From NCBI GenBank assembly GCA_027576995.1, contig JANBQC010000388.1, positions 1 through 26,969 of the forward strand: a stretch of DNA of 26,969 nucleotides, given 5' to 3'. This DNA is from Dimargaris cristalligena. Lineage: Eukaryota; Kickxellomycota; Dimargaritomycetes; Dimargaritales; Dimargaritaceae. A model generated the notes under the pieces. The model searched no databases. It was given only the letters and a program-made list of their open reading frames with translations, and had not been told where the DNA came from. The translations under genes were made by a program, and so were the position numbers. Each line of letters begins with the position of its first letter. Positions within the stretch are counted from its first letter, which is position 1. Positions 3,324 to 26,935 of this stretch are shown here, one piece after another.

Positions 3324-5312
3324 ATGGTCAAACCCACTTACTGTGTATGGTTGCTAGGCCTCCATTTGGCACAACTTCCCGTGCACTTATGTATAGGACA
3401 GGACACTGCCGTTACCGTCTCGCCGCCGATCGATAATCCGTCTCCACAAGAACCTCCTCTTTCTCCTCCAGAATACAGTACCTGGGATCCTAGGGCAATA
3501 TCTCCCGGTTACGACGAATCCATCGGACGACCAGAGAACGGCAGATACCCCATCGAGGTCGGCTACGCAGATGAAACAGCGACAGACGAAAATTTGATCA
3601 ATGTGCCCGAGTATACCGACGAATACGTATATCCCTTGCAAGTTCTGCAACTAGACGACCTTCCCATCCCTGTAATAAACCTGTTGAAATACCCTGGAAC
3701 AATTAACTCTCTCAAATCTAGGCGCAGTCAGATACAAGAAAAACTAATCAATAACGTAAGCCACCATTTACATCATCTATAACTTATAGGGCCCATATGA
3801 ACAAAAACGAATTGCTACTAGCTATATCACTATTCTTGGATAGGTTTCAAGGCTTTGACCAGTATTGACCAAGGAACATTCCCAATGAGTCACCAATCCC
3901 CTCAGGCTTATTCTGCCTCGGACTTTATACTATACCCAACTAATGCATAACTAACCGCCACTCTCATACATATTGGTTTGTCATGCATTGCCCCTACCGC
4001 CCCAACGAAATCTTGGTTGCATGTCGGTAAATTATAGGCTACAGACAGCCTGGTTACGTATATTGCCAAGACAACGGACACCCAAAAGTACCAAAGCATA
4101 CGCAAGCTGATCCAAACGGCCCCTAGCAACAAAGTGTTACATTTGGTATACTATATGGACACCGAATTTTTTGTATCCAAAACCGTCCCCATAGTCCAAA
4201 ATAAGGAAATCATGATGATTCCGTTTAAGGATGGGGAAAATGATAGTGGTGGTACCATTCACAAGGAAAACCAGCAGTGGTACAGGGCATATCTATCCAC
4301 GGTTCTTGTTTACGAGGGTCGGGGCGAATTGGCTGCAGATATTCTCGAGGCGCGCCTGCGCTTGCTAGGTGACGGTTTCAACTTGAGTGATTATGAGGCG
4401 AAGACCATGCGAGAAGTGACGACTATCACCACCCTCACTGACTGCATCCGGGCCTCTATTTTGACCAATGACATATCGACGCTTGGCCGTCTGCTCATGC
4501 TAAACCAGTCCCCCACGAACAGCCAGAGGCGCGGCCCCAATTTTATTCGGCGATTCAGCCAGCTTGAATACCACGGTTTCCTCATGATGAGCCTTTATTG
4601 GAAACGCTATGAAGCCGCGGCGCTCATTCAGGCCCTAGTCATCCCGGGCACACTCAAGAAAGAGGCATTACGAGATATTGGTGATCGGCTATATAGATGG
4701 GTAGACAAAAAACGTAGGGAGCCGGAGTTGACGGAGGCGGAGTTGGAGGAGTCCAACCGTGATGAGCCCACCCAATATTATCACAGATGGGAGACGACCT
4801 TCAAGAATAGTTTTGTACAACAAAAAGATGTGTCTAGACTGAAGCCCTGGAAATGGCAACATCTCATTACACAGTTTCCGAAGTACCTTGTCGGAATCCC
4901 CTCCGGAAACGAAGTATCGGATTTTAAGAGTGTTCAAGACCTGTACTATACCGTAACCAACTACGGTGATTTCACGAAAGACGCAGTACTCGAAAAAATT
5001 AAAATAGTCCAAGCCGAATCGAAACAAGCCGCGAAGACTATCCAGCAAAGGCTGGCGGTGGAGGGCCCATCCACCGGCCCGTCGTTTCGAAATGGCTCTC
5101 CCACCACTGGGCGTGCCCAGATGGCCCCAGTAGTCCCGACAACAAGTCGGCCCAACTCCCAGGCAGCCAACAACCGGCAACGCCCAACCGGCGAATCGAG
5201 TTCCCGCCCACCAATGAGCGTGTGGGAGCGACTAAGCCAACCAAATCAACGACAGTCCCGTGGCACTTTAGCCGGCTCAGCAGGTCGGAACCCCCCCCCC
5301 CCAAGTAGCTAA
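3324..5312 (+). CDS. Putative secreted orphan protein, 568 aa, two exons
   Basis: Proposed structure: exon 1 3324-3755, intron 3756-4037, exon 2 4038-5312. The ATG at 3324 has A at -3 and G at +4. Residues 1 to about 25 form a signal peptide: basic MVK, then a hydrophobic core through LLGLHLAQLPVHLCIG. A proline-rich segment follows (about 33-52), then a long hydrophilic, helix-prone region (about 100-480). A low-complexity Pro/Ser/Gln/Arg tail runs from about residue 486 to the stop. The mature part has only one cysteine that I can see, which is unusual for a secreted fungal protein. NATD, spanning the splice junction, and NLS are possible N-glycosylation sites. I recognise no domain, so the function is unknown. 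The exons are joined because both are in phase 0 at good GT-AG sites and exon 2 has no convincing ATG of its own until 4155. It runs tail-to-tail with the peptide gene ending at 6081, and a broken copy of its 3' end lies at the far right of the window. Confidence 0.65.
3756..4037 (+). other. Predicted intron of the secreted orphan gene
   Basis: The donor is AAC|GTAAGC and the acceptor ends TTATAG at 4037. The upstream exon ends in phase 0, and the frame immediately after the acceptor is open to the stop at 5312. In that frame the last stop codon is the TAG that forms the acceptor itself. Length is 282 bases; CTAAC at 3951-3955 is a possible branch site but is rather far from the acceptor. The upstream frame unspliced ends in a stop at 3780-3782. 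Confidence 0.65.
5291..5302 (+). repeat. Poly-C tract of 12 bases at the end of the secreted gene
   Basis: Twelve consecutive C bases encode the prolines just before the Ser-Ser-stop end of the 568-residue protein. The corresponding place in the right arm has an interrupted, shorter C tract (AAACCCCACCAAG) and reaches the same stop. Length error in sequencing or slippage here would change only the last few residues and the stop. Confidence 0.9.
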
Positions 5313-6080: not shown

Positions 6081-6272
6081 TTAGCAGACCATCCACCAGC
6101 CTTTGCGCCAGCAGGAGCTCCAGCCTGGACCGGTACCGGACCCATTGTCGTCCGGACCACCCGACATTTGGCGCCTGGCCACGGCGGTCTCTTGGTGATG
6201 GACGGGATGGGCCTGGACAACCACAGGGGCAACAGCGAGCACGGCTACAATTGTGAAGCGAAGGGAGACCAT
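6081..6272 (-). CDS. Secreted Kex2-type peptide precursor, copy A, 63 aa
   Basis: A 63-codon frame starts at an ATG with A at -3 and G at +4. Residues 1-21 form a signal peptide: MVSLR, a hydrophobic core, and a likely cut after VQA. Residues 22-34 are a His-rich pro-segment ending in the dibasic pair RR, a Kex2-type cleavage site. The remaining 29 residues would be the mature peptide. It begins with Gln, which can cyclise to pyroglutamate, has a Gly/Asp/Asn/Pro spacer, and ends in WSSCWRKGWWMVC, four Trp and two Cys that could close a 10-residue loop. Copy B (25799-25990) differs in about 17 of 192 bases, and the 29-residue part differs at two residues. A TATA box lies 143 bases upstream and AATAAA about 230 bases downstream. 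The layout recalls ascomycete alpha-factor-like precursors, whose peptides also carry a small Trp/Cys loop, but there is no direct match. An effector or antimicrobial peptide is equally possible. It has one exon and lies inside an inverted-repeat arm. Confidence 0.8.
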   Translation of the reverse strand: MVSLRFTIVAVLAVAPVVVQAHPVHHQETAVARRQMSGGPDDNGSGTGPGWSSCWRKGWWMVC

Positions 6273-6648: not shown

Positions 6649-8208
6649 TCAAAAGCCAAAGCGCTTGGCACTCGTGTAACTTGAAACAGTGCTAGACATC
6701 CCTAACGAACATCCCCGAGAGAGGGGAGTGACAATCAACCCAGTGTCAATCCGTTGGCCCGTCCTACTGCGCGTTCGATGACAGAGGATAGACTACTTGA
6801 GCGCATAGTGGTGGCGAATATCTCGCCGGAAAAGGTTCGACAGCGGGCAATCCCGCCACTAAATCCAAGTTGCGTGAGTATCAATCGGACGACGTTAATG
6901 CTATATAGATCAGCGAAGCCTAGACCATCCCCTAATGGCAGCGCATTTCCTGCTCCACTAGCTCACTCCCCCCCCACTTGTGGTGACACTTTGCCCAAGG
7001 CAAAATATTCACGGTTAATGGTCATCATTTCTAATCAGCCATGTTAACTGAGGCGGATAGATAACCAGTGATGGACCAGTTAGTTAGTTTGGAGACAATA
7101 GGCGGTGCCGACAATTTAGGTGACAAAGTAATGATTATCTCAGGTCCTGTGGGCGAAACCAGGAGGGGCATTAGCCCGTGAGCTCAATCAACTTTTTCTC
7201 GGGGCTTTGTGACCCTAATCCCCAACCAAAAGGGCCGCGTATTACCCAGCCCCTGGCCTTAATGGATCATTTATATTTTGGAGGTACAAAGACACTCTGG
7301 TCTAGCTATGCAAATAGTAGGTATGTCGAATGGCTAATAAGATATGGATAGTCGGAAGATTCACTATCTTGGACCAGGTCGACTGGCTTAGTGCATGAGT
7401 AATATTCATAAAGTGGCTAACGACTGAAAACCTAGTAGAATTAGGAAAATTTAAGCCAACCATGTACATGGCCTACAAAGACTGGTTAGAGAGATTGCAA
7501 ACATCACTGAGACTAGAATGCAGCCAACGAAATCACACACCTCCCCCCTCACTGAAGGGTCACGCTGGACTACCCTAAAAGGATAAAGACACCAGGACTT
7601 AGAACGTTAGACATGTTTGAAAGCAGTTACCGTTTATGCCCAAATAAGTGTACATTTTGCTCTTCTAGGCCTTTTTCCTCACCCCTAACACAATCTCCCA
7701 GGTCTACTAATGTAGGTCAGATACTTCAAAGCTGCAGTGGAGGTCAGTGATGGGGTGGTTGGTAAATCATGCATCCCTGATAATCAACTATAGCTCTCCG
7801 TGCTATCAACTATGGTAATGAAGACACACCCTTTAGCGAATAGACCAAAAGTCGCCTTTCAACGATGAGCAGCATCGCGGTCCTAACCGTATGTAAAATA
7901 GATACTATACTATCGTCAAGAAGGTAAAGTTTCCTTAATTGGTTAGGAAGGGGTAGCTATGATTGAGATAAACAGGAGGGGGGGTTGTTGGTCAATTCAA
8001 CAAAAGAGACCGCATAAAATAACTTTTCTCGATGACCATGGGGACAGCCGTAGGACTGGTCCGTTATTTCCGGCGGGATTATTAAAGAAATCGGCCTTGA
8101 TGGGTTTAATACGACTATATTAAAATCCAACCGTGTAAGCCACCCACTTGAAAAATAAAATGCGGCCGGGTTACGTCTATTACAATATTACGCGATTTTT
8201 GAATCGCT
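6649..8208. other. Region without recognised genes, spanning inner end of left arm
   Basis: Up to about 7120 this is still inverted-repeat arm. The open frame at 6754-7047 has only a broken, frame-shifted counterpart in the right arm, so it is unlikely to be a gene. From 7121 to 8208, where the prephenate dehydratase gene ends on the minus strand, I see no convincing coding frame, RNA gene or repeat. Confidence 0.5.
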
Positions 8209-9255: not shown

Positions 9256-9981
9256 GGTCGCTGAAGTACAATAAATCGCGATAAATAGTAAGGTTAATGG
9301 GGCGAATTTCCAAAGTAAGTGGGTAGGATGGGGGCGGTAGTTCATTGGGCGAAGGAAAGGTCTGAAACGAAAAGTAGCGGAAGGCATGGAGGCCCTGGAC
9401 CAAGTAGTACTGGGCAAGGGTGTTTGTATGTGGGTGAACGGTTGGGTGTGCTAGTGAGGTCAATACAGAGAGAACGGTTTAAACCGTATCCGAGCAACTT
9501 TGGGGTAAAGGAGGAGAAAATGGTGAGTCATATGGCGGGTAGACGGACAGTGACTATGCTTATTTGATATTCCGGTATTATATGGTATCTGTGAGTCAGG
9601 TTAAGTTAAAGACACGCCTAAAAGAATTCACCCCGTTGCCTGGCCGTGAATATAGGGGGCCACATATACTTAATGATGTCACCAAACCACATTGGTTTAG
9701 ACTGGTAAATGCCCCACCAACGCCACTATTTTTGCGACTTGAGGGCAATTTAGCTGCTCCCCTTCCTTTTAGCCAAATTGGATATCACGAAGAATCAACT
9801 AAGAACAAGTAGAATATAGCTACTATTTTTAATTGGGTTATGGTAGACCCCATAATCTAAGAGTCGGTCGTCTGTCTGATAATTCCAGCAGCTAGAACTA
9901 AGAGAGTATAGAAGAGAATGGTAGGCAGCATTGGCTAAATCTTGGTAGTAAGTCTTTTCGCTTGCAGTTCGAGCATATATA

Positions 9982-10119
9982 TGGGTGAAATTCAGCCCAG
10001 CTATATAAGGGTTTACATTATATGTGTATGGGAGAATATATGGGAAATTTATTTTTAACTAGTAATATTGGCCGAATCTAATGGATTTTTCGTTATACAG
10101 CTTGGATGAACTTCTCCCA
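9982..10119 (+). mobile_element. MITE copy 2 (138 bp)
   Basis: The left end TGGGTGAAATTCA and right end TGAACTTCTCCCA form imperfect terminal inverted repeats that extend inward to about 27 bases (22 of 27 positions pair by my comparison). TA flanks both sides (9980-9981 and 10120-10121). Length equals the other three copies exactly. It is in the same orientation as copy 3, only 98 bases away. Confidence 0.88.
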
Positions 10120-10217
10120 TATGGTGGTGGTGGTATAGCCCTGCTGCATGGGAGGAAGTGTACGGTATGGGAAATATTCTACCAATCACACAAATTTCCC
10201 GGATTTTTTTTTCCGTC

Positions 10218-10355
10218 TGGGTGAAATTCAAGTCAGCTGTATACCATTTTACATGATTTGTGTATGGGAGAGTATGTAGGAGTAACCATTTTAACCAGTA
10301 ATGTTGGCCCCATCTAATGGATTTTTCGTTATACAGCTTGGATGAACTTCTCCCA
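10218..10355 (+). mobile_element. MITE copy 3 (138 bp)
   Basis: Same ends and length as copy 2, and an identical right-hand run from CTAATGGATTTTTCG to the end. Here the flanking dinucleotide is TC on both sides (10216-10217 and 10356-10357), not TA. The matching flank still supports a 2-bp target duplication. Confidence 0.88.
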
Positions 10356-11077
10356 TCTGCATCACCATCAGTGTAATTGGCAGTTGGGTACTAATTTAAC
10401 TGCCCGATTTCTATTTCATTTTTTTCCGGTATTGTTTCCCACAACCTCTACCAAGGACTCCTTTGTCCCCACCCTCCCCCATAAAAAGAGGGAGTCCCGC
10501 CACCTCCATGAATAGCATCGACTGTACTTTACAGGATCATGTTAATAGTTTCTACAACTAAGCTGCTCCATTATTAATTTACAGCCGTTGACTAAAGTTG
10601 GTTGAGGAATGACAACCTGCCGTTCGTAAAGGGAGGTTTGTGGGTTTCGGTTTCACGACCGGGGCTCATTCGATGATCTTACCGGCCTTGATTCGCTGCT
10701 CCTTTGAAGAAGCAATTGATATTGGGGTTCGGTGAGGACGGCTAGGTATTCTGACAACTTTAGCCACATCCCCCTCTCTATTTTTAACAAAACAACACAA
10801 ACATTACTTTCATATTATTAACTAGTAAATTCAACTAGTGTTTTTCTTTACTACTGGTTTGGTCGGCTACGATTGAACCCCTCGCTCCCTGCAGCTCTAA
10901 TTCCAGGCTTGTTGTCTACGCCAACTATTACTAGATTGTGTTTATTCTTAGCTGTCGTCTACGCTCTCGCTGTACCACAGTTCCCTCCTAAACGCAACCA
11001 GAATCACTCTCGATTCTCTCGACCTTCTAATGACACTCCTTGCGCCCATTTAATTTATTATTGGGTTTTTATTATCC

Positions 11078-13415: not shown

Positions 13416-16400
13416 ATGGAGGACTCCCAGCAGCAAGCCGCTAACAAATCAATATTTACTGTCTTGACTTTTCTAGGCAAGGCTCGTCGACGGGAGCGAC
13501 TCCGCAGGGAGAATAGTTTCCCCAAGGCCCCCAAGTTTGATATTTTTGCCCCATTACCCCCCGAAGCCTACCGTCCTCCGCCCACACAGCCGCTGACCCC
13601 GACGGTCACGGTAACACCGGCGCAAGCGCCGACACCAACTGCTAGCCCAGATCGGTATCTGGGCCGCGCCACCTCCGAAGCTGGCCCGTCCTCCCAACCC
13701 GCGCGTCCCTCTTTCGCCACCCGCCGGACTCTGCAGCCGTCGGCCAGCGCCCGGTCCCATGTGCCTAACCCCGTCGACACCCGCTACATACCGCGTCCCC
13801 AATCGACTATCACTGCTGAATATGTCGGCCCTTTCCATCCAGCAGCCCCCCGCCCCCCGCCGGCGGCGGTGGCTGCCTCCTCCATGGAACCCGATCGGCG
13901 GTCCGTGTCGTCGGCGTCCACCTGGGATTCCCAAACCAGTGCGGTAAGCCACTTCGGGTCCCGGCGGCCGCGGTTGTTCGGCAAGCCCCTCTTCCCCATG
14001 CTGCGGAAACGATCCAAGCACTGGCGACCCACCCGGACCACCGCCATCCAGACCCACTCCCGGTCCACCCTATTCTCCCAGCCCCACAATTCCAGTCGGT
14101 CCCGCGTCCCGCGAACCCCGCGGAACGGGTCGCGAACCCAGTTTTCCCCCCGGACTTCCCGGAAAAAGCGGCACGGTGGGGGGGTCACTTCAACGGGAGT
14201 GGGAACCACCACCGAGATGGGTACGGATCCATTAGACGTCGATGACCACCCCGTGCCCCCCTATCATCCCCAGTCTACGCCCGGTCCTTCGGCTCCGGCC
14301 CGACGAATCACCGTCGCCGAGGGCGTGAATCAGCGGGGTTCGGGAAAAGAAGCAGCGGAACGGCTGCGCGCTGCTTTGCGACCCTCCCATACCGTGCCCC
14401 AGCATAATCCCCAAATGTACCCCCATCCACCGGGCTATGATGTCCCCGGTGAACCCACTCAGCACGACGAATGGGTGGATACGGGTCCCTCGCACGATCC
14501 CGCGACGGCTTGGCGTATGCGACGCCGTAAAAAGGAGCGTGCGCGGCTCAATGTGAAAACCTCTCCGCGGGCCCGCTCTCCCTTGGCCGAGCAACTGGGG
14601 CCATCCGAACTCGAGCCGGTGCCGGAACTCGAACCTGACCCCGAGCTCGAACCAGAGATGGAGGTGGACCCGTCATCGGTCAACCCCAAAGACTTACCGC
14701 GACGCACTTCATCCATGGCTCTGCATGCCCAGTTCCAGGAAAAACCCCATACAGTGGTTCGGACGGTTAAACGTACCCAGACCCGAACCTCTATTCGGCC
14801 TCAGCCCTCCCACCACTCGGGGGTCTCCTCCGCCCACCCCCATAGCGGCGGTCCACTCTCCGAGGAAACGGATTACGGTAAACCCATTCGGTCAACCACC
14901 ATCACCCGAACTACCGCCCGGCTATCTCCCCCTGGTCGCGCCCAAACCATGTATGTCCCAGCCGGCCAGCCCCACCCCAATATTGACGAGGATCCCGAAC
15001 CGATGAGCTACCCCGCCGGTAGTCTAGGCCGCAAGTCGTCCCTACAGGAACGGACTCGGGGTCGGGATAGTGCCTATGGCGACCTAACAACCGCCACCCA
15101 CGTTATGAAAGCCTACCAGCCCTCTTCGGCCTTTACCCCCTACCATTCGCAAGTCCCCACGCGGCCGGCCCCGTCCCAGGCCTCCGCCTCCCAATCGGCC
15201 AATATCTATGCCCCTGTCTTGACGTCCCGCCCCCAGGAGTGGTTCCCAATGAGCAGTGCTGGCGCCCCGCAATACCCCACGACTATCATGATGCCTCCCT
15301 TGGCCAACCTGGTCCTGCCGGCCCCGATTTCCCTCTCCTCTCCCCCCGAGCGGGAGGCACCGTTACACCACAAAGGTAGCGATAACTCGCCTCGGGTCCG
15401 GAGCGGCAAACCCCCTCCCCCATCAGCTGGGGGCCATTCGAGCGACTCGGAACATTCTCCCTCGTCCGAGCGGACAGTTGAGGCTATTCATCGCCAAACC
15501 TCCCGCCTCCAAGTGATTGGTGGCGGCCCCTTTTCCGCCCTGCCACCTCTGGGCACCTTGCCCTCTCTACCCTCCACCGTTCATTTGCAGCAGGCCCTAA
15601 ACCTTGAGCCATTAACTTTGGATGTGAATCCGTCAACCACCCAAGTTATACCCAGTGCAGCGACAGTAGCCGTGGGCCGAGCTCCCGAGCCCGAGTCTAA
15701 ACTTGAACCGATGGCTGATTCCGATCGCGAGTCCCCCAAAGTATCGGACGATCCCCCGTATCTTTCCCTGCGATTCCTGAAAAGTAATACCCCCGAGGCC
15801 TATCGACTGGCGCCTTCCCTGTTCGACCAGCCCTTTGAAGAGTTCCTGACGAAGCAGGAGCGTAAACTCAATCGGCAGGTGTCCACCGCTTCGTATCACG
15901 CGGCCCAGGGTCCCATCACCACGACTATAAAACCCCAATTTGCCGCCACTTCGCCCCGGGGCCGGCCCCCGAGTTACACCCCACGGGCGACTACTGCCGC
16001 TATTTTACCGGACTTGAACATGTTTTCCCGGGCCGAAATCAACCAGGCTAGCGACGGCGAGACCAATTTAGTGCAATTGGCCGAAGATTGTATGACCGGG
16101 CCGGAACTAACCGAAGAACAGCAGGCTTTAGCTAATGCCTTATTCCCTGACGTCATTCCCGACGGCTGTATCCGGGACCTCCTGGACATGCCGGACTCGA
16201 CGGGCCTGGCATCACCCTTTGAAATCGCCGCGGACCTGGATTCTGCCTTCGAAGACCACGACTACCACCAAGATCAAGATCAAGCCCACGGCCATGATCG
16301 AGACCCCCGCTCGTATCGCACTCACGAGCATGATCGTAATTATGCGACTGAGGAATTACAGTACCGCCAGGCCCAAACCCAGGCCTGGGCCAATTCCATC

Positions 16401-19400
16401 CCTTCCACCAGCCCGCATATCGACCCCTTATCCGAAGACCAAAGCGACCTGTCGCAACTCTTACGGCGGGCGGCCCCCGAGTTTCCATCCCCGCGCTCTT
16501 ACCACCCGGCCTACCCCGAATCCTCCATGGAAGCCGCGGTCGATGACGAAGTCATGTCCATGCCCGACGAAGGGAACGAATTTAATACCGACAGTCTGGT
16601 CGAATCGCGGCCGACCGCCTTGTTTCTCCAATCCACCGGGCCATTATTGGGGGGCGGCGCCGGTGGTGGTGGTGATCATACCTCCACGTCGACGACGTCC
16701 TTCCCCCCGCGGCAGCAGCCCACTTCGACGACATACCCCACGGAAACGAGCCCACCCGACCGAAGAAAAGCACGGGCCGCCGCACGGATGTCGGTTACGC
16801 AGTCCCCACCAACTCGTTCTACGGGTTCAGGAGAGGCCCGTTCACTGGCTCTTAGTTTGTCCCCTCGCACCCTACCCACCACCGGACCATCCGATAAGCT
16901 TCGCCACCGCGGGTCAATTTTCGACGGGGTGGCGGACCGACCCGGTACCGAACGTACCATTAGTCGGAAAGTTTATCACGATGGGCCGTACCAAGTTGTG
17001 GAGGAAATCGAGGAAGTCGTGGAGATTGTCACGGACACGGAGGAGGCGCGGGATAAGCACCCCGCATTAGACACTGCCGAGGGGAGGGACCAATACACCC
17101 AGCCCTATGAATCTGAAACCGGCGCGGTTCCATCGGAATCAGAGCTAGAGTCGGAGCCAGCCACGGAATCCCACCGTGCCATGAAATCCCATCATTCGGA
17201 TCCTCTAACCCCGTCCGCGTTTCACGATCTATCTCTGGCCACGGACGAGAGTTTGCCACCGTTGACCTCGGAATTACCCTCTCTACCGTCTTCCTTTGAC
17301 AATGCCTTGGGTGGTGGGTCCGGTAGTACGGGGTTACCATCCGACCAGGCTTTCCCTACCGCTCGTGGAGGAGCCCCGTATTCCCAACCCGAGCCTCGCC
17401 TCCTGTCACCGCCGCTTGCACCCCGGTCCGAAAAAGCCCGGGGTAAACAACCGGCGGCTGGTAGTCAAAGTGGCTCCTATCATCTGCCGCTCTCTTTCAC
17501 GCCTCCGTCATCGTCCTTACCGTTACCCGCTCCACCGGTTGCCCGACCGCAGTCTCCGCCCCGCCCTAAATTGTGGGAACAATACGCCCGGACTATTCAT
17601 GGCGGAGGTCACACCCCGAGATCTGTCTCGGACGTCTCCGATCCTCTAACCCATCCTGGTGCCGGTGCCGGTCCTGGATACCCCCAGACCTACTCCCCCC
17701 CGCAACTCCATCAGCGAACGGCCCTACCAGACTTCACCCCCGCCACTGACGCTGCCACCAATTCGTCCACCGAATACAATATCGCCACCCCCATCCGAGT
17801 ACCCTACCTCGACGGACAATCCGTGTCCCTAAGCGCCGAATTCAAACGCGGTCTCCTCCAGGATTTATCGGGTACCCAGCCGAATGTTCCAACCCGGTAC
17901 TATCGCTATGATCCCTCGGCCAATACTAAAGTTGAACCGTCCCCCCCGGCGGTCCCGGCCACGGATATGGCTACAACGGCCCCGGAATCTGATTCGTCCC
18001 ATTTGGTGTCGACTATGGACCATGTCAAGTTCAGGTTGTCCATGTTGGAAAATCAGCTACAGGGTAAACAATCCATGAAAAGTTTCTATGAAGCTCGGCC
18101 TCCTACCGGACCGCAGCCCGCTGTTCCAACGACCGGGTATACCCGCTCTGCTGCTCCGAAGTCTGATGGACGTAACCTTGGATCCAAGTCTACTACTAAG
18201 ATGGTTAATCAGGGAAGTCGACCGAAATCAGTGGGTGCTTCTGCAGGCGGAGGAGGAGGAGGTGGTGGACCAGGTGTTACTTGGAACCCTACCAATAATC
18301 TCAGTCCTCCTCAACCAGGTCTTTTGAAGCCATCCGTATCTACTTTGGGAGGGGGCCAAGAGGAACTATATAGTCGCCGGGAATTCGATCCTTCTTCGGT
18401 TGGCGCCGATGGTCACTCAACGTCGTTGCCGCCCTTATCCGAATATCCACCCCCACCCCTACTTCCACTCCCGCCCCCACCCGTTAAGCAGCCGCAAGCC
18501 ACCGGCCCTTCGCCGAAAATTGCCCTACCACCACGGAGGAGACCATCCCAGTCTACGGCAGCGAACCATGCTAATCCTATTGCTGCTAAATACCAGTCGC
18601 CCATTCATTTGCCCGTGCCACAAATTGATACTACGGCTCCCACTCCCCCCGAAAGTCAAAAAGAGTTGGCGGCCGTCTCGGTGCATGTCTATTCACGCCC
18701 ACCATCCCATCCGGTCAACAGAGCAATCGCCAGTAGCCCACGTACCTCGGAAGATTGGGGTAGTCCGGGTCGTTCGAACACCACCACCACCAATAGTACC
18801 CTATCTACCGGCAATGCCACAGCCGGGTCGGCGGGGGTGGCCGTTCAGCGCCGGGTCAGCTGGCTCCCGAGCCACCGGCCCACATCACCCATTCCCGTGT
18901 CGGAACACTTGCCCCGTACCCCTATATCACCGACCCGTCCGAACGCCATGTTCCTAGACTCCCCTCCCTCGGCGAGCGTGCGCACCAAGAGTCCCCTTAA
19001 TGTGAAGTTCTGGTATCATTTGGACGATCCCGGTCATCCGCTGAGTACGGATGCACGTCGGGAGGCCCGGCGACTCAGTCAGGGATTGGGGGTCAATGTA
19101 GACCTCCAGAACGACCCGACAGCGGCGGCGGATACCCAGGCGGGAATGCAACGGCGGCGGAGTTCACAGTCGGCTCGATTTAAGCCCCCACCCTCGCCCT
19201 CTCCACCACCGGCGGGGGAGGATGTCTCCGAAGAACTGTCCGCCCGTAGCTCCTCATCTCTGCAAAATGAATCCGGGGTACTATACCCCCACCCCAAGTC
19301 CCCCCGTCCCCACCTCCCCCCTTCGACTAAACCGCGTTCCGCGGATGACGAGGGCCAACTGACGGACCTCGAAACTCACGTCAAAATTGCCCTCTTGGAA

Positions 19401-21245
19401 GCCATGGCCCTGTCTAATAATCGGGAGGAGTTACGTCATAATAATAGTCTGGGCGGAGGGGGTGATCGCTCTCACCGGCCAAGGAGTTCCCGGCGTTCGC
19501 GTGCAAAAACGGTGACGGCCCGGCAGGCGTCAGCCAGGCCCCACCATAATATTGCTAACCCAACTCTAAAGGCGACCTCAACACCCAGTTCGCCTGTTGT
19601 AGTACCCCCGGGGAACCGTGGAACCACTGTAGGAAGAGAAGGGGACCGAGGGGCTGCTTTACTACCCATGTCCCATCCCCCTGTCACCACCGTGACTATG
19701 CTGGCCTCACCCCCAAATCAGGATCACCATAGTAGCGGTTATTATAATGCCAACAACCGGAACAACAACAATGATAATAATAATACGATGAGTGCTAACG
19801 CGGACCGGCCTAGCCTGCGCGACCGGTGGCAGCATTTGACCTCATGGCAGAAGTCGTCCCGGCCACCCAAACACGTCAATATGGCGGACATCATGGCCCA
19901 ACACACCGATATAGAAGCTGCCCCTACTCCGGCAGCCCTGCCCGTTCATTCGACCCCCGCGGCCCATAATAGCCGGATGGCCGACGTACGCCGCACTACC
20001 TCCTCGTCCGCGCGCCCCAGCCGCCGCCCCTCGCGTAGCCAGACACCGAATCCCACCACCAAACTGCCTACGCCCGACGTGGCTTTCGATAAGGCCTTCA
20101 CACCCCGGTCGTCCGAGAGTCAACTGAACGACAGTCGGATCCAGTACATCACCCCGAATCCTGATCCACCGGCGGAACTAGCTCCCGTTCCGCTCCCTGC
20201 TACCGCGTGGTCCCAGCGCTTGCCAATACCCAAGAAAAACCGCCCCACCCACTTCCGAAGTGGAGCCACCCCCTCGGACCCAACGCGCCACCCCTCACCC
20301 ACTACTACACCGGGTAATTCTCGACCCCATTCGATAGCTGTTGCCACAATGAGTACCACCAAGGACCAACCCCAAAACCCGCCTTCGGCTATCCCGACCG
20401 GTCCCGCAGGGGGAGTAGGTAGACGGGGGACCATTAGTGGTGGTAGTGGTTCTGGTGCAGGTACGGGTAAACCGCCAGGGGTACAGTTTGTTTTGCCGGC
20501 CGGCCTGCCTTCCGCTCACCAACAATCCACCCGTTCAGCGGTTGTCCCCCTTTCCCGTCTCGCCGGGTCCAGTTCGGTCAATTATTACACCTCTTTAACT
20601 GCCCCCTCGAATACTTCCCACTCCCATTCCTACACCAACGATCCTTCCCAGCAGCCGCACCGTTCGTCCCTCATTCACTACGAGCTGCAGTCCCCTGGGG
20701 AAGCGAATTCGACTAATTATCCCATTGATCGGGTCCTGGTCAAAGGCCCCCTGCAGGTAACGAACCGGAACCACAACGATTACGAAAGTGTGAAGAGTCG
20801 GAATTCAACGACCCAGGAAAGAGGCACCGTACCTGGACTTCAGGAGGGAGGATTTAGGCCTCGGGCAGTGGAAGTTGGCGGTGATGAACTGCCGCCGGCC
20901 TCGCATGGTAGTCGGCGGTTCCGTAACTCGGTCAGTCGTCGACGCGGTAATACGATGACTACAAATACTATGCCTACGGCTGGTCATTCTGCCCCCGTTC
21001 CCTTAGCAACACCGGCACCGGCTTCCCGATCGGCAGTAGCCACCGCTAAGCCGGTCCAGGGCCCTAGAAACGAACGACCCGACTATTGGTCCCCACCCGC
21101 TGAAGTACCCTCCCAGATTCACCACAGCCGCGATTTAGAACGGGTTCAGTCGGTGCGACCCGTCTCCAACTCCCTGTCGGCTAGATCACCTAATAACAGT
21201 CGTGGTCTGCGCTTACCACTTTTCCAAATTAAGAATACTTCCTAA
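13416..21245 (+). CDS. Giant disordered Pro/Ser/Thr-rich protein, 2609 aa, no intron
   Basis: The start is ATG in CCACC-ATG-G. The frame is uninterrupted for 7830 bases and GC-rich at third positions. The N-terminus is basic (GKARRRERLRREN, about 21-33), then nearly the whole protein is low-complexity, rich in Pro, Ser, Thr, Arg and Gln, with many PPxP and S/T-P sites. Possible ordered islands are: LSLRFLKSNTPEAYRLAPSL (about 783-802) with a helical follow-on, EEIEEVVEIVTDTEEARDK (about 1195-1215), VKFRLSMLENQL (about 1537-1548), VKFWYHLDDPGHPL (about 1863-1876), LETHVKIALLEAMALSNN (about 1985-2002) and LRDRWQHLTSWQK (about 2134-2146). Simple runs include alternating ELEP (398-419), His/Asp-rich (about 948-976), polyGly (about 1611-1619) and polyAsn. 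No catalytic domain, signal peptide or membrane segment is seen. A cytoplasmic scaffold or signalling hub is a plausible but unproved role. I recognise no orthologue. Confidence 0.85.
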   Translation: MEDSQQQAANKSIFTVLTFLGKARRRERLRRENSFPKAPKFDIFAPLPPEAYRPPPTQPLTPTVTVTPAQAPTPTASPDRYLGRATSEAGPSSQPARPSFATRRTLQPSASARSHVPNPVDTRYIPRPQSTITAEYVGPFHPAAPRPPPAAVAASSMEPDRRSVSSASTWDSQTSAVSHFGSRRPRLFGKPLFPMLRKRSKHWRPTRTTAIQTHSRSTLFSQPHNSSRSRVPRTPRNGSRTQFSPRTSRKKRHGGGVTSTGVGTTTEMGTDPLDVDDHPVPPYHPQSTPGPSAPARRITVAEGVNQRGSGKEAAERLRAALRPSHTVPQHNPQMYPHPPGYDVPGEPTQHDEWVDTGPSHDPATAWRMRRRKKERARLNVKTSPRARSPLAEQLGPSELEPVPELEPDPELEPEMEVDPSSVNPKDLPRRTSSMALHAQFQEKPHTVVRTVKRTQTRTSIRPQPSHHSGVSSAHPHSGGPLSEETDYGKPIRSTTITRTTARLSPPGRAQTMYVPAGQPHPNIDEDPEPMSYPAGSLGRKSSLQERTRGRDSAYGDLTTATHVMKAYQPSSAFTPYHSQVPTRPAPSQASASQSANIYAPVLTSRPQEWFPMSSAGAPQYPTTIMMPPLANLVLPAPISLSSPPEREAPLHHKGSDNSPRVRSGKPPPPSAGGHSSDSEHSPSSERTVEAIHRQTSRLQVIGGGPFSALPPLGTLPSLPSTVHLQQALNLEPLTLDVNPSTTQVIPSAATVAVGRAPEPESKLEPMADSDRESPKVSDDPPYLSLRFLKSNTPEAYRLAPSLFDQPFEEFLTKQERKLNRQVSTASYHAAQGPITTTIKPQFAATSPRGRPPSYTPRATTAAILPDLNMFSRAEINQASDGETNLVQLAEDCMTGPELTEEQQALANALFPDVIPDGCIRDLLDMPDSTGLASPFEIAADLDSAFEDHDYHQDQDQAHGHDRDPRSYRTHEHDRNYATEELQYRQAQTQAWANSIPSTSPHIDPLSEDQSDLSQLLRRAAPEFPSPRSYHPAYPESSMEAAVDDEVMSMPDEGNEFNTDSLVESRPTALFLQSTGPLLGGGAGGGGDHTSTSTTSFPPRQQPTSTTYPTETSPPDRRKARAAARMSVTQSPPTRSTGSGEARSLALSLSPRTLPTTGPSDKLRHRGSIFDGVADRPGTERTISRKVYHDGPYQVVEEIEEVVEIVTDTEEARDKHPALDTAEGRDQYTQPYESETGAVPSESELESEPATESHRAMKSHHSDPLTPSAFHDLSLATDESLPPLTSELPSLPSSFDNALGGGSGSTGLPSDQAFPTARGGAPYSQPEPRLLSPPLAPRSEKARGKQPAAGSQSGSYHLPLSFTPPSSSLPLPAPPVARPQSPPRPKLWEQYARTIHGGGHTPRSVSDVSDPLTHPGAGAGPGYPQTYSPPQLHQRTALPDFTPATDAATNSSTEYNIATPIRVPYLDGQSVSLSAEFKRGLLQDLSGTQPNVPTRYYRYDPSANTKVEPSPPAVPATDMATTAPESDSSHLVSTMDHVKFRLSMLENQLQGKQSMKSFYEARPPTGPQPAVPTTGYTRSAAPKSDGRNLGSKSTTKMVNQGSRPKSVGASAGGGGGGGGPGVTWNPTNNLSPPQPGLLKPSVSTLGGGQEELYSRREFDPSSVGADGHSTSLPPLSEYPPPPLLPLPPPPVKQPQATGPSPKIALPPRRRPSQSTAANHANPIAAKYQSPIHLPVPQIDTTAPTPPESQKELAAVSVHVYSRPPSHPVNRAIASSPRTSEDWGSPGRSNTTTTNSTLSTGNATAGSAGVAVQRRVSWLPSHRPTSPIPVSEHLPRTPISPTRPNAMFLDSPPSASVRTKSPLNVKFWYHLDDPGHPLSTDARREARRLSQGLGVNVDLQNDPTAAADTQAGMQRRRSSQSARFKPPPSPSPPPAGEDVSEELSARSSSSLQNESGVLYPHPKSPRPHLPPSTKPRSADDEGQLTDLETHVKIALLEAMALSNNREELRHNNSLGGGGDRSHRPRSSRRSRAKTVTARQASARPHHNIANPTLKATSTPSSPVVVPPGNRGTTVGREGDRGAALLPMSHPPVTTVTMLASPPNQDHHSSGYYNANNRNNNNDNNNTMSANADRPSLRDRWQHLTSWQKSSRPPKHVNMADIMAQHTDIEAAPTPAALPVHSTPAAHNSRMADVRRTTSSSARPSRRPSRSQTPNPTTKLPTPDVAFDKAFTPRSSESQLNDSRIQYITPNPDPPAELAPVPLPATAWSQRLPIPKKNRPTHFRSGATPSDPTRHPSPTTTPGNSRPHSIAVATMSTTKDQPQNPPSAIPTGPAGGVGRRGTISGGSGSGAGTGKPPGVQFVLPAGLPSAHQQSTRSAVVPLSRLAGSSSVNYYTSLTAPSNTSHSHSYTNDPSQQPHRSSLIHYELQSPGEANSTNYPIDRVLVKGPLQVTNRNHNDYESVKSRNSTTQERGTVPGLQEGGFRPRAVEVGGDELPPASHGSRRFRNSVSRRRGNTMTTNTMPTAGHSAPVPLATPAPASRSAVATAKPVQGPRNERPDYWSPPAEVPSQIHHSRDLERVQSVRPVSNSLSARSPNNSRGLRLPLFQIKNTS

Positions 21246-24200
21246 TCCATACCCCTCCCCCCCACCCTTGCCCTGTTACATTATTCACCCATTTCTATTT
21301 GCCTATGTTTATTACTTCTTTTTGATTTCTTGATCTCGGCTTATTTATTTTCGCCCTCACTTCATCCAATTTATCCTAGCCTGTATTCAATATTGATTCT
21401 GCATGATTTAGCATTTTTTTTTCTCGTCAAAATTGGTGGTTCATCTTTTTAATACCTATACCTTACTGATGCTCCAACAACCTCTTAAATCTATCTTTAC
21501 ATCGCGCTTTCAATTTTTCTAGCTTGTCTAATATATCGGTCCGTTTGCCTCAGTTCACTCAATTGTTGCATGTTTCTATTTTACATCATACATACATATA
21601 TTTATATGTATACCCCTTTGTGTTTGTTCGTCCTTTAGTTTCACGATGTTTTTTTCATATATACCTTATTAAACCCAAGTGGGAGGTAATCGTCCCAGCT
21701 ATTTCCAAATATTTGGCCCAGTGCAAAGCCTGTATATTGGTAGTCACCTTATAATGCCTTGAGCTCGGTAATATGTACATGTGGTGGTTTATGTGAAAAT
21801 CAGATGGGAAGTCTGTGATTTAAAAAAATCAATTCATGCAAAGGGACAATATGAGCAGTACCAAGGTCTAACAAGTTGAGGGCCATTAGCTGCAGCTGAA
21901 TGAATTGGGGATCCTAAACATTGGGTGCTATCCGATGTATTTGTCACTTCTACCACAGCAACCAAAACAGCCCCCCAATTGCTAACGAGGTATCTCCTCC
22001 AACTGAGACTACTACAGCCGAACATCAAGATAACCAAGGTCGCGGCCATGCACCGACCCTGGTCATGAATAACTGAGCTGTTGCCGCTGTCATTATATTT
22101 TGGTGCATATGGGTGAAGTTCAGCTTGGTTGCACAAGGTTTGAACCAATATGTGTATGGGAAAATCGGTGGGATGTTTATTTTCAACCAGTAGTATTTGC
22201 CCTATCAAATGGATTTTTTGTTATACAGCCCTATTGAACTACTCCCATATAATGGGCTTTGTGAGAGTAGTCCCCCAACGAGGAAAAAGCCAATCCACTA
22301 GGAACTAACAGCACTAGTCTACCAATTTTGCTGCTTCTAGAAATGGGCCAAGGGGAGCCGTGCGGCAGAAAAGAAGGGAGAGAAAACACCAATGATCTTG
22401 GAGATGCTGGTATACTTTTATTAAGGTTAAATGCATTGTGGTTATCGGGGACCAGGCTACTTCTCCCATATTTTATCCATACCTAGTTTAATGAAGGGGG
22501 AGAGGGATCTCCTGGGGTGGGGAATAAGTGCGCAGTGCCACGGGGCTGGTAAGAGACGCCCCGGTGGGATCCGGTGTTGACGGGTCTCTTTGTCCTTAGA
22601 GTCACCCATAGCGGGTATTGCTGCAGGACCGTTGTGCTACCTCTGGTTGTATAACAAATCGACCTATATGGTACATGACAATTTAAGTCAGAATTTCCGG
22701 GCCCTAATGCACTGTTGTGAGAATGGCCCATGTCCCACATTACCCGGTGTTACCAACCATCACCCTGAGACACGCTTATCTTTTGAATAGGCCGGCCCCA
22801 GTTAAAAAATTAAGATTTGTCCATCCCAATAGCCAGGAAGTGAAGGTATGTCTCTTTGGGAATAATTGCGTGCACTCTACCCAGAGTGGCCTGGTACAGC
22901 CATTGCGGAGTTCGTTGAATTGGCTGTTTTGTTTTTGCTGGATGGGATTGCGTAGATGGGAGTGTAGGAGTACTTTAACACGGGACGGTGTGCAATTTGG
23001 ACAGCGCTATGGTTAAACTGGGTGCTCGTACTCCATAGTATAAGTGTATAAACATTTAAGCGAACTATTCCAAAATGAAAACATATACTGTGGAATGGGA
23101 TTGGGTTGTTCACTATGATGGAGGTCAGCCGTTTTTGATCATACTATGATCTTCAAAAGTCGGATTAAGTTGGGGAACTTACCAAATTAAGTGCTATGGG
23201 GGAGGAGTGCCCCGACAGTAGTCAGGGAGGAAATCAACGGATCACCCTGTGGCAATAGACGGCTAGCCAGCTGGCGGGGGGTTAGAATACATAAAAAGGG
23301 GTATAGGCTGTTTTTATCTAATCAATTGACTATTTGTTAGGAACATCTCGTAGGAACCATGCCAAGGTATTTAAAATATACATGGTGTGCAGGTATTGGT
23401 GTGGGGTCGTAGTTTTATAGAAGATGTGGCGTACAAGGCGTTTCAGAAGTGACATTCTTGACCGACTGATGTTAAACGAAGCCTGCCTACGAAAGAAGTG
23501 GTCGCGGACCTAGTTTCCATGTTAGCAACATAAAGGTGGGGCAATCCCTCCAAGAAGTTGACGATTGGATAGAAGCATCCGCCAACATTCGCTTTCAACT
23601 AAAACCAAAGATTGCCCGAGCTTATTTCTCAGTTTGGGTGCTACATAAAGTTACAGAATATAAAACAACCTATTTAAAAATACACCTGTAAAATAACCCT
23701 GTTCTCCACAGGCCGGATAAAAATCGCAAATTTTTGTGGTTAAATGGGTTCCTAATTGAGTCCACCAAGGAAGGGTTACTCCCACGAAACCTTAGCTCGC
23801 GAGTCGCCCATTTTCCCTTAATTGGCCTTTAAATTATTCAAAGATGGGTGTTGGCGTGAGTATTATCGCACTGCAATTGTTACAGCGCCACAGGGTTAGT
23901 GATTGGCCTTATCCTTGTATTGGTCAGATAAATTCGGACGATTACTGATTTTCGACACGTCCATGGCCACCTACGTTTTCGTTTCACCAAACCTCCTGAG
24001 GAACATAAAAATAGCGAGGGGTATGGATGCCACCGTATCCCAAAGTGACAGTGGAGCTACGCCAAGTCGATTTTCATTGGAATTGTTAGTACCGCTATAG
24101 GAAGAATGTAAATCTGAGGGTCTAAAACAGTAAATTTGGAAGTGAGAATACGCATTTTAGGACATGGATGTATAGATAAGGTATAATAAGGTTTGCTTTT

Positions 24201-24974
24201 CAGTATAATATTTATTCCAGCTGGCTGGCCTGATATTGGTTGTCCTCTTTGAATAAACCAATCACACCCACTTGGTTGTTTACTGCTATTCTGTATTGGG
24301 TATAGGGAAAGAGCGACGGCCGAGAAAATCAGGAATACAGTTTTAGATATAAAGGATAGCTACATTGATATATGCCTATATATTTAAAATTATGGGGTTC
24401 CCATCCTATTAGGGTATTCCAGAGTGAACATTCGGTGATGGGGGCCAGTTTATTTGTATAATTCAAATAGTCCCCATATCGTCGGTTGCGATATCATACT
24501 TGAGATGTTAGCTGTCTACTGGATCAATTTTTGAAGACCGTGTACATGGTTGGTTTAAATTCTATTTATGCGACTAATTATTCAGCCATCAATCACTTTG
24601 GTAATATTTTTCATGCACTAAGTCAGTCAACCCAATCCAAAGTAGTATAGCATGCGAGTATCCATTTCTAAGTAACTACTCGATGTACTTCCTATTTGCA
24701 CAGCCAGGCTATAGTGCGTTTGTACCTCAACAATGTAAGTAATCCGCTGAGGCCAGGAACTAGGTAATATAGGGCCCATCTGGCTGGGGATTAAGGTAAC
24801 AAAGCCTCAAGAAATAGTGGATTGAGCTTACGGCCTCATCTCCTCCCAGTTTTGCCCACAGTACTTTAGATAATTATTACTCCATAACCTCCCGGGTGAA
24901 ATTATCTATCACATCCACTTCCTTTTTCTCCAGGCTGCTCATATATTTGTAGCTATTGGTGAGAGGGCTGGCCC
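21246..24974. other. Long intergenic region with one MITE and no recognised gene
   Basis: The first 500 bases are T-rich and include the 3' flank of the large gene. After the MITE at 22110-22247 there are only short open frames (for example 22717-23016 and 23903-24100) without start context, motif or repeat partner. The AT-rich stretch at 24100-24950 holds nothing I can identify. No tRNA-like fold was noticed. Confidence 0.5.
22110..22247 (+). mobile_element. MITE copy 4 (138 bp)
   Basis: The left end is TGGGTGAAGTTCA and the right end is TGAACTACTCCCA, with TA on both sides (22108-22109 and 22248-22249). Length is 138 bases as in the other copies. It is the most diverged of the four internally but keeps the core TATGTGTATGGG and the TTATACAGC near the right end. 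Confidence 0.82.
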
Positions 24975-25440
24975 CCTAAACTATAGGCGCCGCCTATTGT
25001 CGCCAATATGCTCATCTGGTCCATCACCGGCCATCCGTTTCAGTTGCCACGACTGATTCGAAATGATGGTCATTAACCGTAGACGTTTTGCCTTGGGCAT
25101 GGCGTCGCCACAAGAGGGGGAGGTGGCTAAGTAGGGCTGGAAATGCGTTGTTATCAGGGGACAGTCCAGGTTTCGTTGATCTATGTGGCACTACTATGTC
25201 GTTGGATTGGCACAACCGAATTCGGCCTTCAGTAGCTGGATTGCCAACCGTCGAATCTTTTCGGCGGGATGTTCGCCATCACTGTGAGCTCAAGTGACCT
25301 TTTCTGTCATTGAACACGCAGTAGAACTGGCCAACGGGTTAACGCTGGGTTGATTGCCGCCCCCTCCCTCTTCAAGATGTTCGTCAGGGATGCCTAGCAC
25401 TGTTTCAGGTTACGCGAGTGCTAAGAACATTGACTTTTAA

Positions 25441-25584
25441 AGGGACTTGTCACAGGGCAAATTGGCCGGAGTGTGTGGCCCTGACAGGGACTGTATCGTG
25501 TATTGTGCTCCCCAATGGTCAATCACCCCGTATTAACCCAATTTACGCACCCCCACCCTAGGGTTGTAATTTGAGACTCACGAG
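25441..25584 (+). promoter_or_regulatory. Conserved 144-bp upstream block, copy B
   Basis: This is the gap-free counterpart of 6505-6648, at a matching distance upstream of the peptide gene (215-358 bases before the ATG). It keeps the run ACGCACCCCCACCCTAG and TGTATCGTGTATTGTGCTCC. The CCAAT-like motif of the other copy is altered here. Confidence 0.5.
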
Positions 25585-25647
25585 TAGCGGTGTGGAGCGG
25601 TGGCCAATTAGTAGAACTCATCGTACTGTCATATTCTAAAGTACACA

Positions 25648-25655
25648 TATATAAA
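25648..25655 (+). promoter_or_regulatory. TATA box, peptide gene copy B
   Basis: TATATAAA ends 144 bases before the ATG at 25799, the same spacing as in copy A. The surrounding leader has diverged, so box and spacing appear selectively kept. Confidence 0.7.
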
Positions 25656-25798
25656 CACCGTCCCCCGCCTACAATATTAAGTCATTCACAATTATTAACT
25701 ATTCTGCCGTCTCCTACTGCCTCAACAAAGTTCGCCTTCTACTCCATCCCCCACGCCCCAAAACTCCGTGTTCATCCACTCCACAACTCTCCGTCACC

Positions 25799-25990
25799 AT
25801 GGTTTCCCTTCGCATTCCAATCGTAGCCGTGCTCGCTGTTGCTTTCGTGGCTGTCCAAGCCCATCCCGTCCATCACCAAGAGATCGGCGTGGCCAAGCGC
25901 CAAATGTCGGGTGGCCCTGACGACAATGGGTCCGGTACCGGTCCAGGCTGGAGCTCCTGCTGGCGCAATGGCTGGTGGATGGCTTGCTAA
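25799..25990 (+). CDS. Secreted Kex2-type peptide precursor, copy B, 63 aa
   Basis: Same architecture and length as copy A. The ATG in CACC-ATG-G is followed by MVSLRIPIVAVLAVA, a hydrophobic signal peptide with a likely cut after VQA (residue 21). The pro-segment HPVHHQE runs to the dibasic KR at 33-34, a better Kex2 site than RR in copy A. The predicted 29-residue mature peptide starts with Gln and ends WSSCWRNGWWMAC. Relative to copy A it has Asn for Lys and Ala for Val in the loop. Amino-acid changes are concentrated in the signal and pro parts. It has its own TATA box, upstream block and AATAAA, so it is likely transcribed independently. A longer frame overlapping in another phase (25839-26321) has no signal peptide and is not preferred. 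Confidence 0.8.
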   Translation: MVSLRIPIVAVLAVAFVAVQAHPVHHQEIGVAKRQMSGGPDDNGSGTGPGWSSCWRNGWWMAC

Positions 25991-26218
25991 AATCTCCTCG
26001 CTGAATCCTCATAGCCCCTGTTCCCTTGACGTCCCAGTGCTTCTTTCTCTCCGTCCGAACGGCTCCTTATTGCCACTGTCTGGACTGGACTTCAGGCTGC
26101 ATGCCCCGATTTTCAGACCCTTGCTACGCTATTCATTGCCCCACCGACTCATACTCACTTCGCTGGACTTCACTATCCTACCCGTCGGCCAACTTGACCT
26201 TCCAACTTGTTATATCCT

Positions 26219-26224
26219 AATAAA
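26219..26224 (+). terminator. Polyadenylation signal AATAAA, peptide gene copy B
   Basis: AATAAA in the context ATATCCTAATAAAATCTAAT lies about 230 bases after the stop codon. The same core is conserved at the matching place in copy A, while the rest of the 3' region has diverged more. Confidence 0.65.
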
Positions 26225-26324
26225 ATCTAATCATCAATCAGTTCGTCTATGTGGTATATGTGGTGGAACTGGTGTGGGAGCGACACATTCGCCTCATCAG
26301 TACCTTCTTCCAGACCCGTGACTA

Positions 26325-26815
26325 TCTATTTGTTTAAATTATGACATCTGTACTAAAACCTGCTCCATCCGATGTCAGTTATTAGCTGAAAGATATCCCT
26401 TACTCCTTGGCGTTTCGACGGATAGCGCCTACCAGGATAAAGGCTGCATGAGAGATCGAATGTCATTAGCGGGGGAAACTATAAAAGTATTTAATTGAAC
26501 GAATACTAAGTTTCAGAAATTGAAAAAAACCAATGCGACAATTCAACTGTGGGCCGAAAGAGTAGTACGGGAAATGATAAATGAGGGGAACATCGACCTC
26601 CGGTTAAATAATAAATGGAGATCTCGGCCCGGACCCGGGTAGGGAAAGTCGCAGGCGAGAGCGGGTCGGTGAAAAAGGAAGTAGTGGAAGGGGAAATATT
26701 CATCCGTTGGTTGGGTAAATTACCCCAACGGCCGATTATAGAGCGAGTCTAGCGGATACACTGGCGTACTTAGTCGAGCAGGTTTTTGGGGTGGAGGTAT
26801 CCTTCGGCAGGTCGG
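26325..26815. other. Outer part of right arm without a gene
   Basis: This is the right-arm counterpart of the convergent intergenic region at 5313-5800. It includes an open frame at 26506-26703 (minus) matching 5355-5555 in its last codons, rejected as coding because most differences are amino-acid-changing and a one-base indel lies near its start. No other feature is seen. Confidence 0.5.
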
Positions 26816-26935
26816 TTAGTGACTTGGTGGGGTTTCCGACCCGCCAAGCAGGCTTAAATGCCATGTTGTGACAGGTACTGAACACCCTTAAGCTTTGGTG
26901 ATGTCACCGATGATGTACCTAACGTCCATTAATCA
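26816..26935 (-). pseudogene. Relic of the 3' end of the 568-aa secreted gene
   Basis: On the minus strand this stretch ends with a Pro-Pro-Ser-His-stop sequence aligned to the Pro-Ser-Ser-stop end of the secreted gene, followed by the shared CTAACCGACCTG (stop at 26816-26818). Further in, TAAGGGTGTTCAGTACCTGT matches TAAGAGTGTTCAAGACCTGT at about 4924-4943, but the roughly 300 bases between (the low-complexity tail) are missing. An in-frame TAA at 26888-26890 breaks the frame. The relic may continue past the window edge, and the outer boundary is uncertain. Confidence 0.6.

Follow-up and report, generated by a model that had tools for sequence, protein, structure and literature searches.

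A multicopy family of single-peptide, Kex2-type precursor genes in Dimargaris cristalligena

The 63-codon gene examined here lies in a 26,969-nucleotide stretch of Dimargaris cristalligena DNA, the whole of which was analyzed (the window). It belongs to a family of eight loci in the genome, and these loci are genes. Kex2-matured secreted peptides are a known kind of product, and this family is one without a Pfam match. As a conserved, multicopy, secreted-type peptide of a haustorial mycoparasite, it is a concrete candidate for partner signaling or host interaction. It is also an example of the single-copy precursors that repeat-based surveys can miss.

The precursor gene in the window

The open reading frame (ORF) translates as MVSLRIPIVAVLAVAFVAVQAHPVHHQEIGVAKRQMSGGPDDNGSGTGPGWSSCWRNGWWMAC. 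A preliminary description of this DNA had proposed a 63-codon gene with a signal peptide, a pro-segment, a KR pair, and a 29-residue peptide with Gln at its N-terminus, and this layout was confirmed (Table 1). The hydrophobic core of the predicted signal peptide begins at residue 6 and has a best 14-residue Kyte-Doolittle mean of 3.01, which was reached by a fraction of only 0.0002 of 5,000 shuffles. The predicted signal peptidase junction is AVQA followed by HPV. The 29-residue end part reads QMSGGPDDNGSGTGPGWSSCWRNGWWMAC, with its N-G-S sequon at position 9 of the mature peptide, and the tail W-S-S-C-W-R-N-G-W-W-M-A-C agrees with the W-x2-C-W-x2-G-W-W-M-x-C pattern described before. The TATA box, the start context (GTCACCATGG), and the polyadenylation signal were likewise found as described. 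The window contains 47 ORFs that start with ATG and encode 60 or more amino acids (aa), so ORF length by itself proves nothing. The second copy that had been reported is present and closely similar; its dibasic pair is RR instead of KR.

Table 1. Features of the peptide precursor gene and its surroundings in the window
Feature	Position	Strand	Remarks
Peptide precursor gene	25799..25990	+	63 aa, single exon, Cys-loop class
Predicted signal peptide	25799..25861	+	21 aa, V-Q-A at its end; hydrophobic core
Pro-segment	25862..25900	+	13 aa, dibasic KR (Kex2-type site) at its end
Mature peptide (predicted)	25901..25987	+	29 aa; Gln1, QMxGG, N-G-S sequon, G-W, C-x8-C with Trp
TATA box	25648..25655	+	two overlapping TATAWA motifs, 151 and 149 nt before the ATG; sequence TATATAAA
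Polyadenylation signal AATAAA	26219..26224	+	228 nt past stop
Second gene copy (P0001)	6081..6272	-	63 aa, 86% identical to the 25799-25990 product; RR replaces KR
Inverted duplication arm with the 25799-25990 gene	24530..26863		other arm 5261-7479; pieces 75-78% alike
Probable two-exon gene, secreted-looking product	3324..5312	+	convergent neighbor of the 6272 copy; intron and signal peptide by eye

Eight loci and two C-terminal classes

A protein search of the D. cristalligena genome (27.09 Mb, 779 contigs) gave eight loci, the query itself counted, with E values from 1.4e-40 to 3.2e-7: the window pair and the copies C118, C611, C681, C29, C450, and C177. Genome searches with a cut version of the protein P0007 and with the protein from Dispira simplex (see below) gave 8 and 5 places, respectively, and no additional loci. 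P0007 has no locus in the genome searched, and the copy number may therefore reach nine or more.

Over 67 alignment columns, the residues invariant in all eight loci are M1, V2, S3, R5, A13, V14, V17, Q20, A21, P23, R34, Q35, G38, G39, G46, G48, G50, W51, S53, W55, and W60. The dibasic pair before Gln is KR in seven loci and RR in one. Every precursor holds a single peptide behind a pro-segment of 12 to 13 residues, and the length of the mature peptide ranges from 23 to 29 residues. The C-terminal part is of two kinds. Five loci form a Cys class with the tail C-W-x3-W-W-[MV]-x-C, which is C-W-R-[NK]-G-W-W-M in the window pair and C-W-N-G-S-W-W in the other three, and the remaining three loci form a Gly-Trp class. 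The Cys-Trp loop is not the family hallmark, because three of the eight loci end in a Gly-Trp tail without Cys. The earlier view of the Trp-rich Cys loop as the mark of the family thus applies to five loci and fails for three, and the His-rich pro-segment that had also been pointed out is confined to the window pair. AlphaFold2 placed a hairpin (residues 53-56/59-62) in the Cys loop at low confidence, with pLDDT means of 70 to 71 over residues 51 to 63; the model of the whole precursor had a mean pLDDT of 61.9 and a pTM of 0.25.

In all eight loci, as well as in P0007 and the Dispira protein (P0008), the stretch from Gln1 to the first Trp contains an N-x-S/T sequon, located at peptide position 8, 9, or 11. 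The chance of such a sequon per member was 6 to 21% in spacer shuffles and 14 to 29% in whole-peptide shuffles, and the spacer-shuffle values of four groups, multiplied by hand, give roughly 7e-4 if the groups are independent. This apparent conservation was spotted post hoc and is a lead. Net charge, computed for 10 mature peptides, ranged from -3 to 0.

Evidence that the loci are genes

The loci are genes, as indicated by similarity confined to the coding sequence (CDS), an excess of synonymous changes, TATA and AATAAA signals, and five matching public entries. Six 9.9-kb neighborhoods and the window were compared by blastn (hits of at least 60 bp, E ≤ 1e-5). Unlinked copies were alike in the CDS alone, apart from dispersed repeats. 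The matches were 198 bp at 81% for C118/C611, 193 bp at 79% for C118/C681, and 200 bp at 85.5% for C611/C681, with edges within a few nucleotides of ATG to stop. The window copies matched C118, C611, and C681 over 145 to 207 bp at 66 to 74%. C177 has only the CDS and a dispersed repeat in common with C29 and C450, and the latter two share 2.2 kb.

Between C118 and C611, 25.5 of 44.7 synonymous but only 10.5 of 144.3 nonsynonymous sites are changed (dN/dS 0.07), and the mature part has 9 synonymous changes versus 1 nonsynonymous change (dN/dS 0.02). The dN/dS values were 0.14 for C118/C681, 0.11 for C611/C681, 0.18 for C29/C177, and 0.19 to 0.34 for the window copies versus C118, C611, and C681. 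The synonymous excess was examined by Fisher's test on rounded counts (7 tests), with P values of 2.9e-12 (all) and 4.3e-7 (mature part) for C118/C611, 6.9e-7 (all) for C611/C681, and 6.6e-6 (all) and 0.0056 (mature part) for C29/C177. Selection was modest in the window pair, with a dN/dS of 0.31 (P = 0.02) overall and 0.15 (P = 0.058) in the mature part. Between the Cys class and the Gly-Trp class, the whole-CDS dN/dS was 0.33 to 0.71 in all 15 comparisons, with one mature-part value of 0.98; these between-class ratios are less certain, with whole-CDS dS values of 0.63 to 1.30.

A TATAWA motif is located 107 to 151 nt before the ATG in seven loci (300 nt upstream searched). Among 804 background stretches of 140 nt, 97 contained the motif; the window is counted twice in this figure, and a background stretch is about half as long as the stretch searched at the loci. 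Upstream of C118 there is only a weaker ATAAATA, found by eye. All eight loci start with ATGG, and all have AATAAA within 400 nt past the stop, in the form CTAATAAA in six, with the background uncounted. Within 600 nt upstream, CCCCTCC is shared by five of the six groups and CCCCTCCC by four, compared to a mean of 0.1 each in a crude control; shared 7- to 9-mers in this stretch showed no clear excess beyond these two motifs.

The public Dimargaris entries P0002 to P0006 correspond to five family loci. P0002 and P0003 both agree with our readings of C681 and C611, respectively. However, the tails of P0004 to P0006 all differ from the unspliced frames: P0004 extends past the C450 stop, P0005 swaps the last residue of C177 for others, and P0006 replaces the C29 tail. 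These divergent ends are probably annotation errors, by splicing as far as they can be read. We prefer the unspliced reading, because all three loci then agree on a Gly-Trp tail followed by a stop. For the window copies and the C118 copy, there is no named protein among the eight database matches listed in the next section.

Distribution

A search of 5.8 billion proteins gave 1,511 candidates, of which 8 passed E ≤ 10: seven Dimargaris proteins, one of them the window's own copy, and one protein of Dispira simplex (IWQ61_001404, P0008; E 3.2e-3). A profile including the Dispira protein found the same eight among 154 candidates. The Dispira protein was thus the only relative found beyond Dimargaris in this collection, whose fungal coverage is uncertain. 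Dispira belongs to the same family as Dimargaris (Dimargaritaceae), and D. cristalligena itself to the Dimargaritales in the Kickxellomycota. According to the part of PMC10386755 on this order, the Dimargaritales form haustoria and mostly attack Mucoromycota.

P0008 resembles the family in its size (60 aa), its signal-like start, its 13-residue pro-segment, the stretch QMEGGPSDDGNDSG, and its Gly-Trp tail. It differs in that PR replaces KR before Gln and Cys is absent, and it is annotated as a hypothetical protein. Its hydrophobic start is weaker (shuffle fraction 0.043), and its tail is that of an automatic gene model. P0008 is probably a true relative (E 3.2e-3). Homologs with conserved loop residues, whose absence would have counted against the preliminary description, exist at five of the eight loci in the genome, but the homolog from a related species lacks the loop.

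None of the eight members matched any Pfam family at E ≤ 1, in line with the earlier statement that the family is not a recognized one, and no description of it was found in the titles and abstracts retrieved by searches of open-license PMC literature. Profile matches to solved structures (E of 0.015 and above), namely, to a beta-lactamase signal peptide and a Gly/Trp stretch of streptavidin, look like composition matches. The same applies to an NCBIfam streptavidin match and to the NCBIfam AimP match of one member (18.3 bits versus a cutoff of 35).

Processing of the precursor

The genome has a single P-domain match (C159, E 1.2e-27), located in a 991-aa frame with a P-domain and a subtilase (S8) match followed by a transmembrane stretch and an acidic tail (the latter two by eye). 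These features identify C159 as a kexin locus. Kex2 maturation of the family precursors is well supported, though not proven, by the sequence features. The pattern KRQxxGG occurs at 16 places in the genome, compared to 17 for the backward control; the KR loci of the family account for seven of the places, and a different secreted-looking protein (C124) accounts for another. In the latter (L028, around G000:C124:2119-2138, minus strand), a signal-like start is followed by SLTKRQMTGGPD and then by a longer chain, with the same junction as in the peptide family. Subtilase (S8) matches were found at 22 places in the genome, one with an internal stop and most in frames of 816 to 991 aa.

Like the Kex2-processed repeat proteins (KEPs) described in parts of PMC6339444 and PMC7329392, the family products are predicted to be secreted and to yield short peptides through Kex2. 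A KEP precursor carries three or more similar peptides between dibasic sites, whereas all eight loci encode one peptide each, and membership in the KEPs under this definition is not supported. The pipeline section of PMC6339444 states that precursors with at least three repeats were kept, so a single-copy precursor of the kind found here would be left out. PMC7329392 gives a mean of 11.56 KEPs per strain in 16 Zoopagomycota strains, raised by a few rich strains, and no word in its main text begins with "Dimargar."

Possible function

We favor, with about an even chance of being right, the reading that these genes encode precursors of a small secreted peptide ligand whose addressee is the fungus itself or its fungal host. 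By established biochemistry, the precursor would enter the secretory pathway, signal peptidase would cut after V-Q-A, and Kex2 would cut after KR or RR in the Golgi, leaving an N-terminal Gln that would close to pyroglutamate. The sequon in the Gly-rich spacer may be N-glycosylated, and one disulfide would close the Trp-rich C-terminal hairpin in the Cys class. The products would then combine a constant N-terminal half with two alternative C-terminal heads, a Cys-closed Trp hairpin or a Gly-Trp tail. The released peptide would act as an extracellular ligand recognized by a specific partner, either the fungus's own (in development or mating) or one on the parasitized fungal host. Within the C118/C611/C681 group, the mature part is strongly conserved, as would be expected with a fixed partner and less so in an arms race. 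The Kex2-type architecture, the conserved mature part, and the low charge together favor a ligand over a coat, an antimicrobial peptide, a sex pheromone in the strict sense, or a ribosomal natural product (RiPP); an antimicrobial or structural role would also fit these data. A more specific and fairly unlikely proposal is a signaling family peculiar to the mycoparasitic Dimargaritales, in which Kex2 peptides capped by pyroglutamate and N-glycosylated would join a constant address half to one of two exchangeable Trp heads, the disulfide hairpin or the Gly-Trp tail. Such peptides would serve either as the first peptide pheromone of the Kickxellomycota or as a signal to the fungal host.

It is unlikely that the peptides instead coat aerial sporophores as Gly/Trp-rich, nearly neutral hyphal-surface or aerial-structure peptides, like the Rep1 repellents of Ustilago maydis. 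Strong expression is suggested by the eight copies, seven of which have a TATA box, and the Gly- and Trp-rich composition with a charge of -3 to 0 is consistent with a coat. In the passages of PMC7329392 that concern them, the Rep1 peptides are water-repellent, Kex2-released secreted peptides of a fungus and are needed for aerial hyphae. However, Rep1 is a repeat protein (compared here by description), in contrast to the one peptide per precursor of this family. The mature part here has only 23 to 29 residues, and most or all members contain acidic residues and a sequon. An antimicrobial or antifungal role, against competitors or in permeabilizing the fungal host, would suit small, secreted, Trp-rich peptides with two Cys in five of the eight loci. 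Typical membrane-active peptides are cationic. The members have no clear positive charge (net charge -3 to 0), and this low charge argues against a membrane-lytic cationic peptide, so that such a role is also unlikely, although the mycoparasitic lifestyle stated in the relevant part of PMC10386755 would accord with it. A precursor of a cyclized RiPP of the UstYa/DUF3328 type is very improbable. The signal peptide, the Kex2 site, and an aromatic core peptide are present, but there is one core and no repeats, and the only common neighbor among ORFs of at least 90 residues in the six 9.9-kb neighborhoods and the window is the one shared by C118 and the window. The genome also gave no UstYa match, a search in which the control genomes were silent too.

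A role as a sex pheromone of the Dimargaritales, comparable to alpha-factor in ascomycetes, would be a case of overlap with the ligand reading and is in itself quite improbable. The resemblance lies in the architecture: like the MF-alpha precursors of ascomycetes, the family has a signal peptide, a pro-segment, a dibasic Kex2 site, and a short peptide, with a kexin in the genome and the cleavage predicted from sequence features. Some alpha-type pheromones have two conserved Cys, according to the part of PMC6339444 on these peptides, and the loop found here, with its two Cys, Trp, and Gly, is similar to some of them. In contrast, the peptide here is Gly-rich, 23 to 29 residues long, and present once per precursor, without a Pfam match and in a species outside the Ascomycota. 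The Ste13 signature as given in that source (XA or XP after the Kex2 site) is absent from all eight loci, which have QM or QL there, and the curated alpha-factor profile matched none of the eight members (Pfam, E ≤ 1). Membership in the alpha-pheromones is not supported, given the single copy, the absent Ste13 signature, and the lack of a profile match. Of the preliminary description, the secreted Kex2-type precursor with a single peptide copy stands at all eight loci, whereas its tie to alpha-factor is not supported: the species belongs to the Kickxellomycota and not to the ascomycetes, the Cys loop is missing at three loci, and the Ste13 signature is missing at all. Genome searches gave no convincing STE2 match and no STE3 match, and the control searches for both receptors were likewise silent. 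The sole STE2 profile match (E 0.03) was below the cutoff, and 14 control genomes gave no match. The frame that holds it is 392 aa long, has a transmembrane stretch and, near its C-terminus, a RING-like motif, and reads as a PA-TM-RING protein; it was rejected as a receptor. As background, PMC6339444 describes pheromone chemistry as largely unknown in early-diverging fungi outside the Mucoromycotina and Blastocladiomycota, and PMC10386755 describes Zoopagomycota mating genetics as not well understood, each in the portion dealing with the subject.

Genomic surroundings of the loci

The product of the two-exon gene next to the 6272 copy (Table 1) gave no Pfam match over the cutoff. A relative of this gene stands convergent to the C118 peptide gene (34% and 33% identity in two compared frames), and neighbors of this type were found at these two loci only (genome searched, E ≤ 1). 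The peptide gene and its convergent neighbor were thus probably duplicated together at C118 and the 6272 copy, as the arrangement occurs at both loci and nowhere else in the genome. The peptide is 65% identical between them and so is less changed than the neighbor protein (33 to 34%). A structure model of the convergent neighbor protein was unusable as a guide to its fold (mean pLDDT 36.5). The other loci had no common neighbor at E ≤ 1e-4 (ORFs of at least 90 residues in the six 9.9-kb neighborhoods and the window), except for frames overlapping the peptide genes.

The C611 peptide gene also has a convergent, possibly secreted two-exon neighbor, read by eye (L038 5620-7321, minus strand; P0009). 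Its long frame had no Pfam match, and no sequence likeness was found between it and the C118 neighbor (E 7.4). A Pfam search of nine frames from the surroundings of the loci, including P0009 and P0010, gave a SPRY protein, a phosphoglycerate kinase, NUDIX, and MARVEL, together with a weak zinc finger and a subthreshold prenyltransferase, and indicated no pathway. An Rfam search of the six locus neighborhoods gave no match.

The C29 and C450 genes (L040 4891-5064 and L041 4898-5071, respectively) lie in a 2.2-kb duplication that is 79% alike. The peptide CDS differ at only 2 of 171 nt (dS 0.02). About 300 to 500 nt upstream lies a second block that is 96 to 98% alike and that looks by eye like the 3' end of a different gene. 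It would seem from this comparison that synonymous sites change far more slowly here than noncoding DNA or that the coding stretches were converted.

A dispersed repeat of about 145 to 153 nt (69 to 96% alike) is present in the window at 960-1112, 9979-10131, 10215-10367, and 22107-22259, and further copies lie beside other peptide-family loci (L039, L041, and L042). It is possibly a SINE-like element. The window also holds a prephenate dehydratase gene (PF00800; 8587-9387, minus strand), a U3 snoRNA (10518-10759, plus strand; 47.6 bits), a gene for the GINS subunit PSF1 (PF24997; 11118-11705, plus strand), and a 2,609-aa open frame (13416-21245, plus strand) without a Pfam match that is Pro/Ser-rich and apparently disordered.
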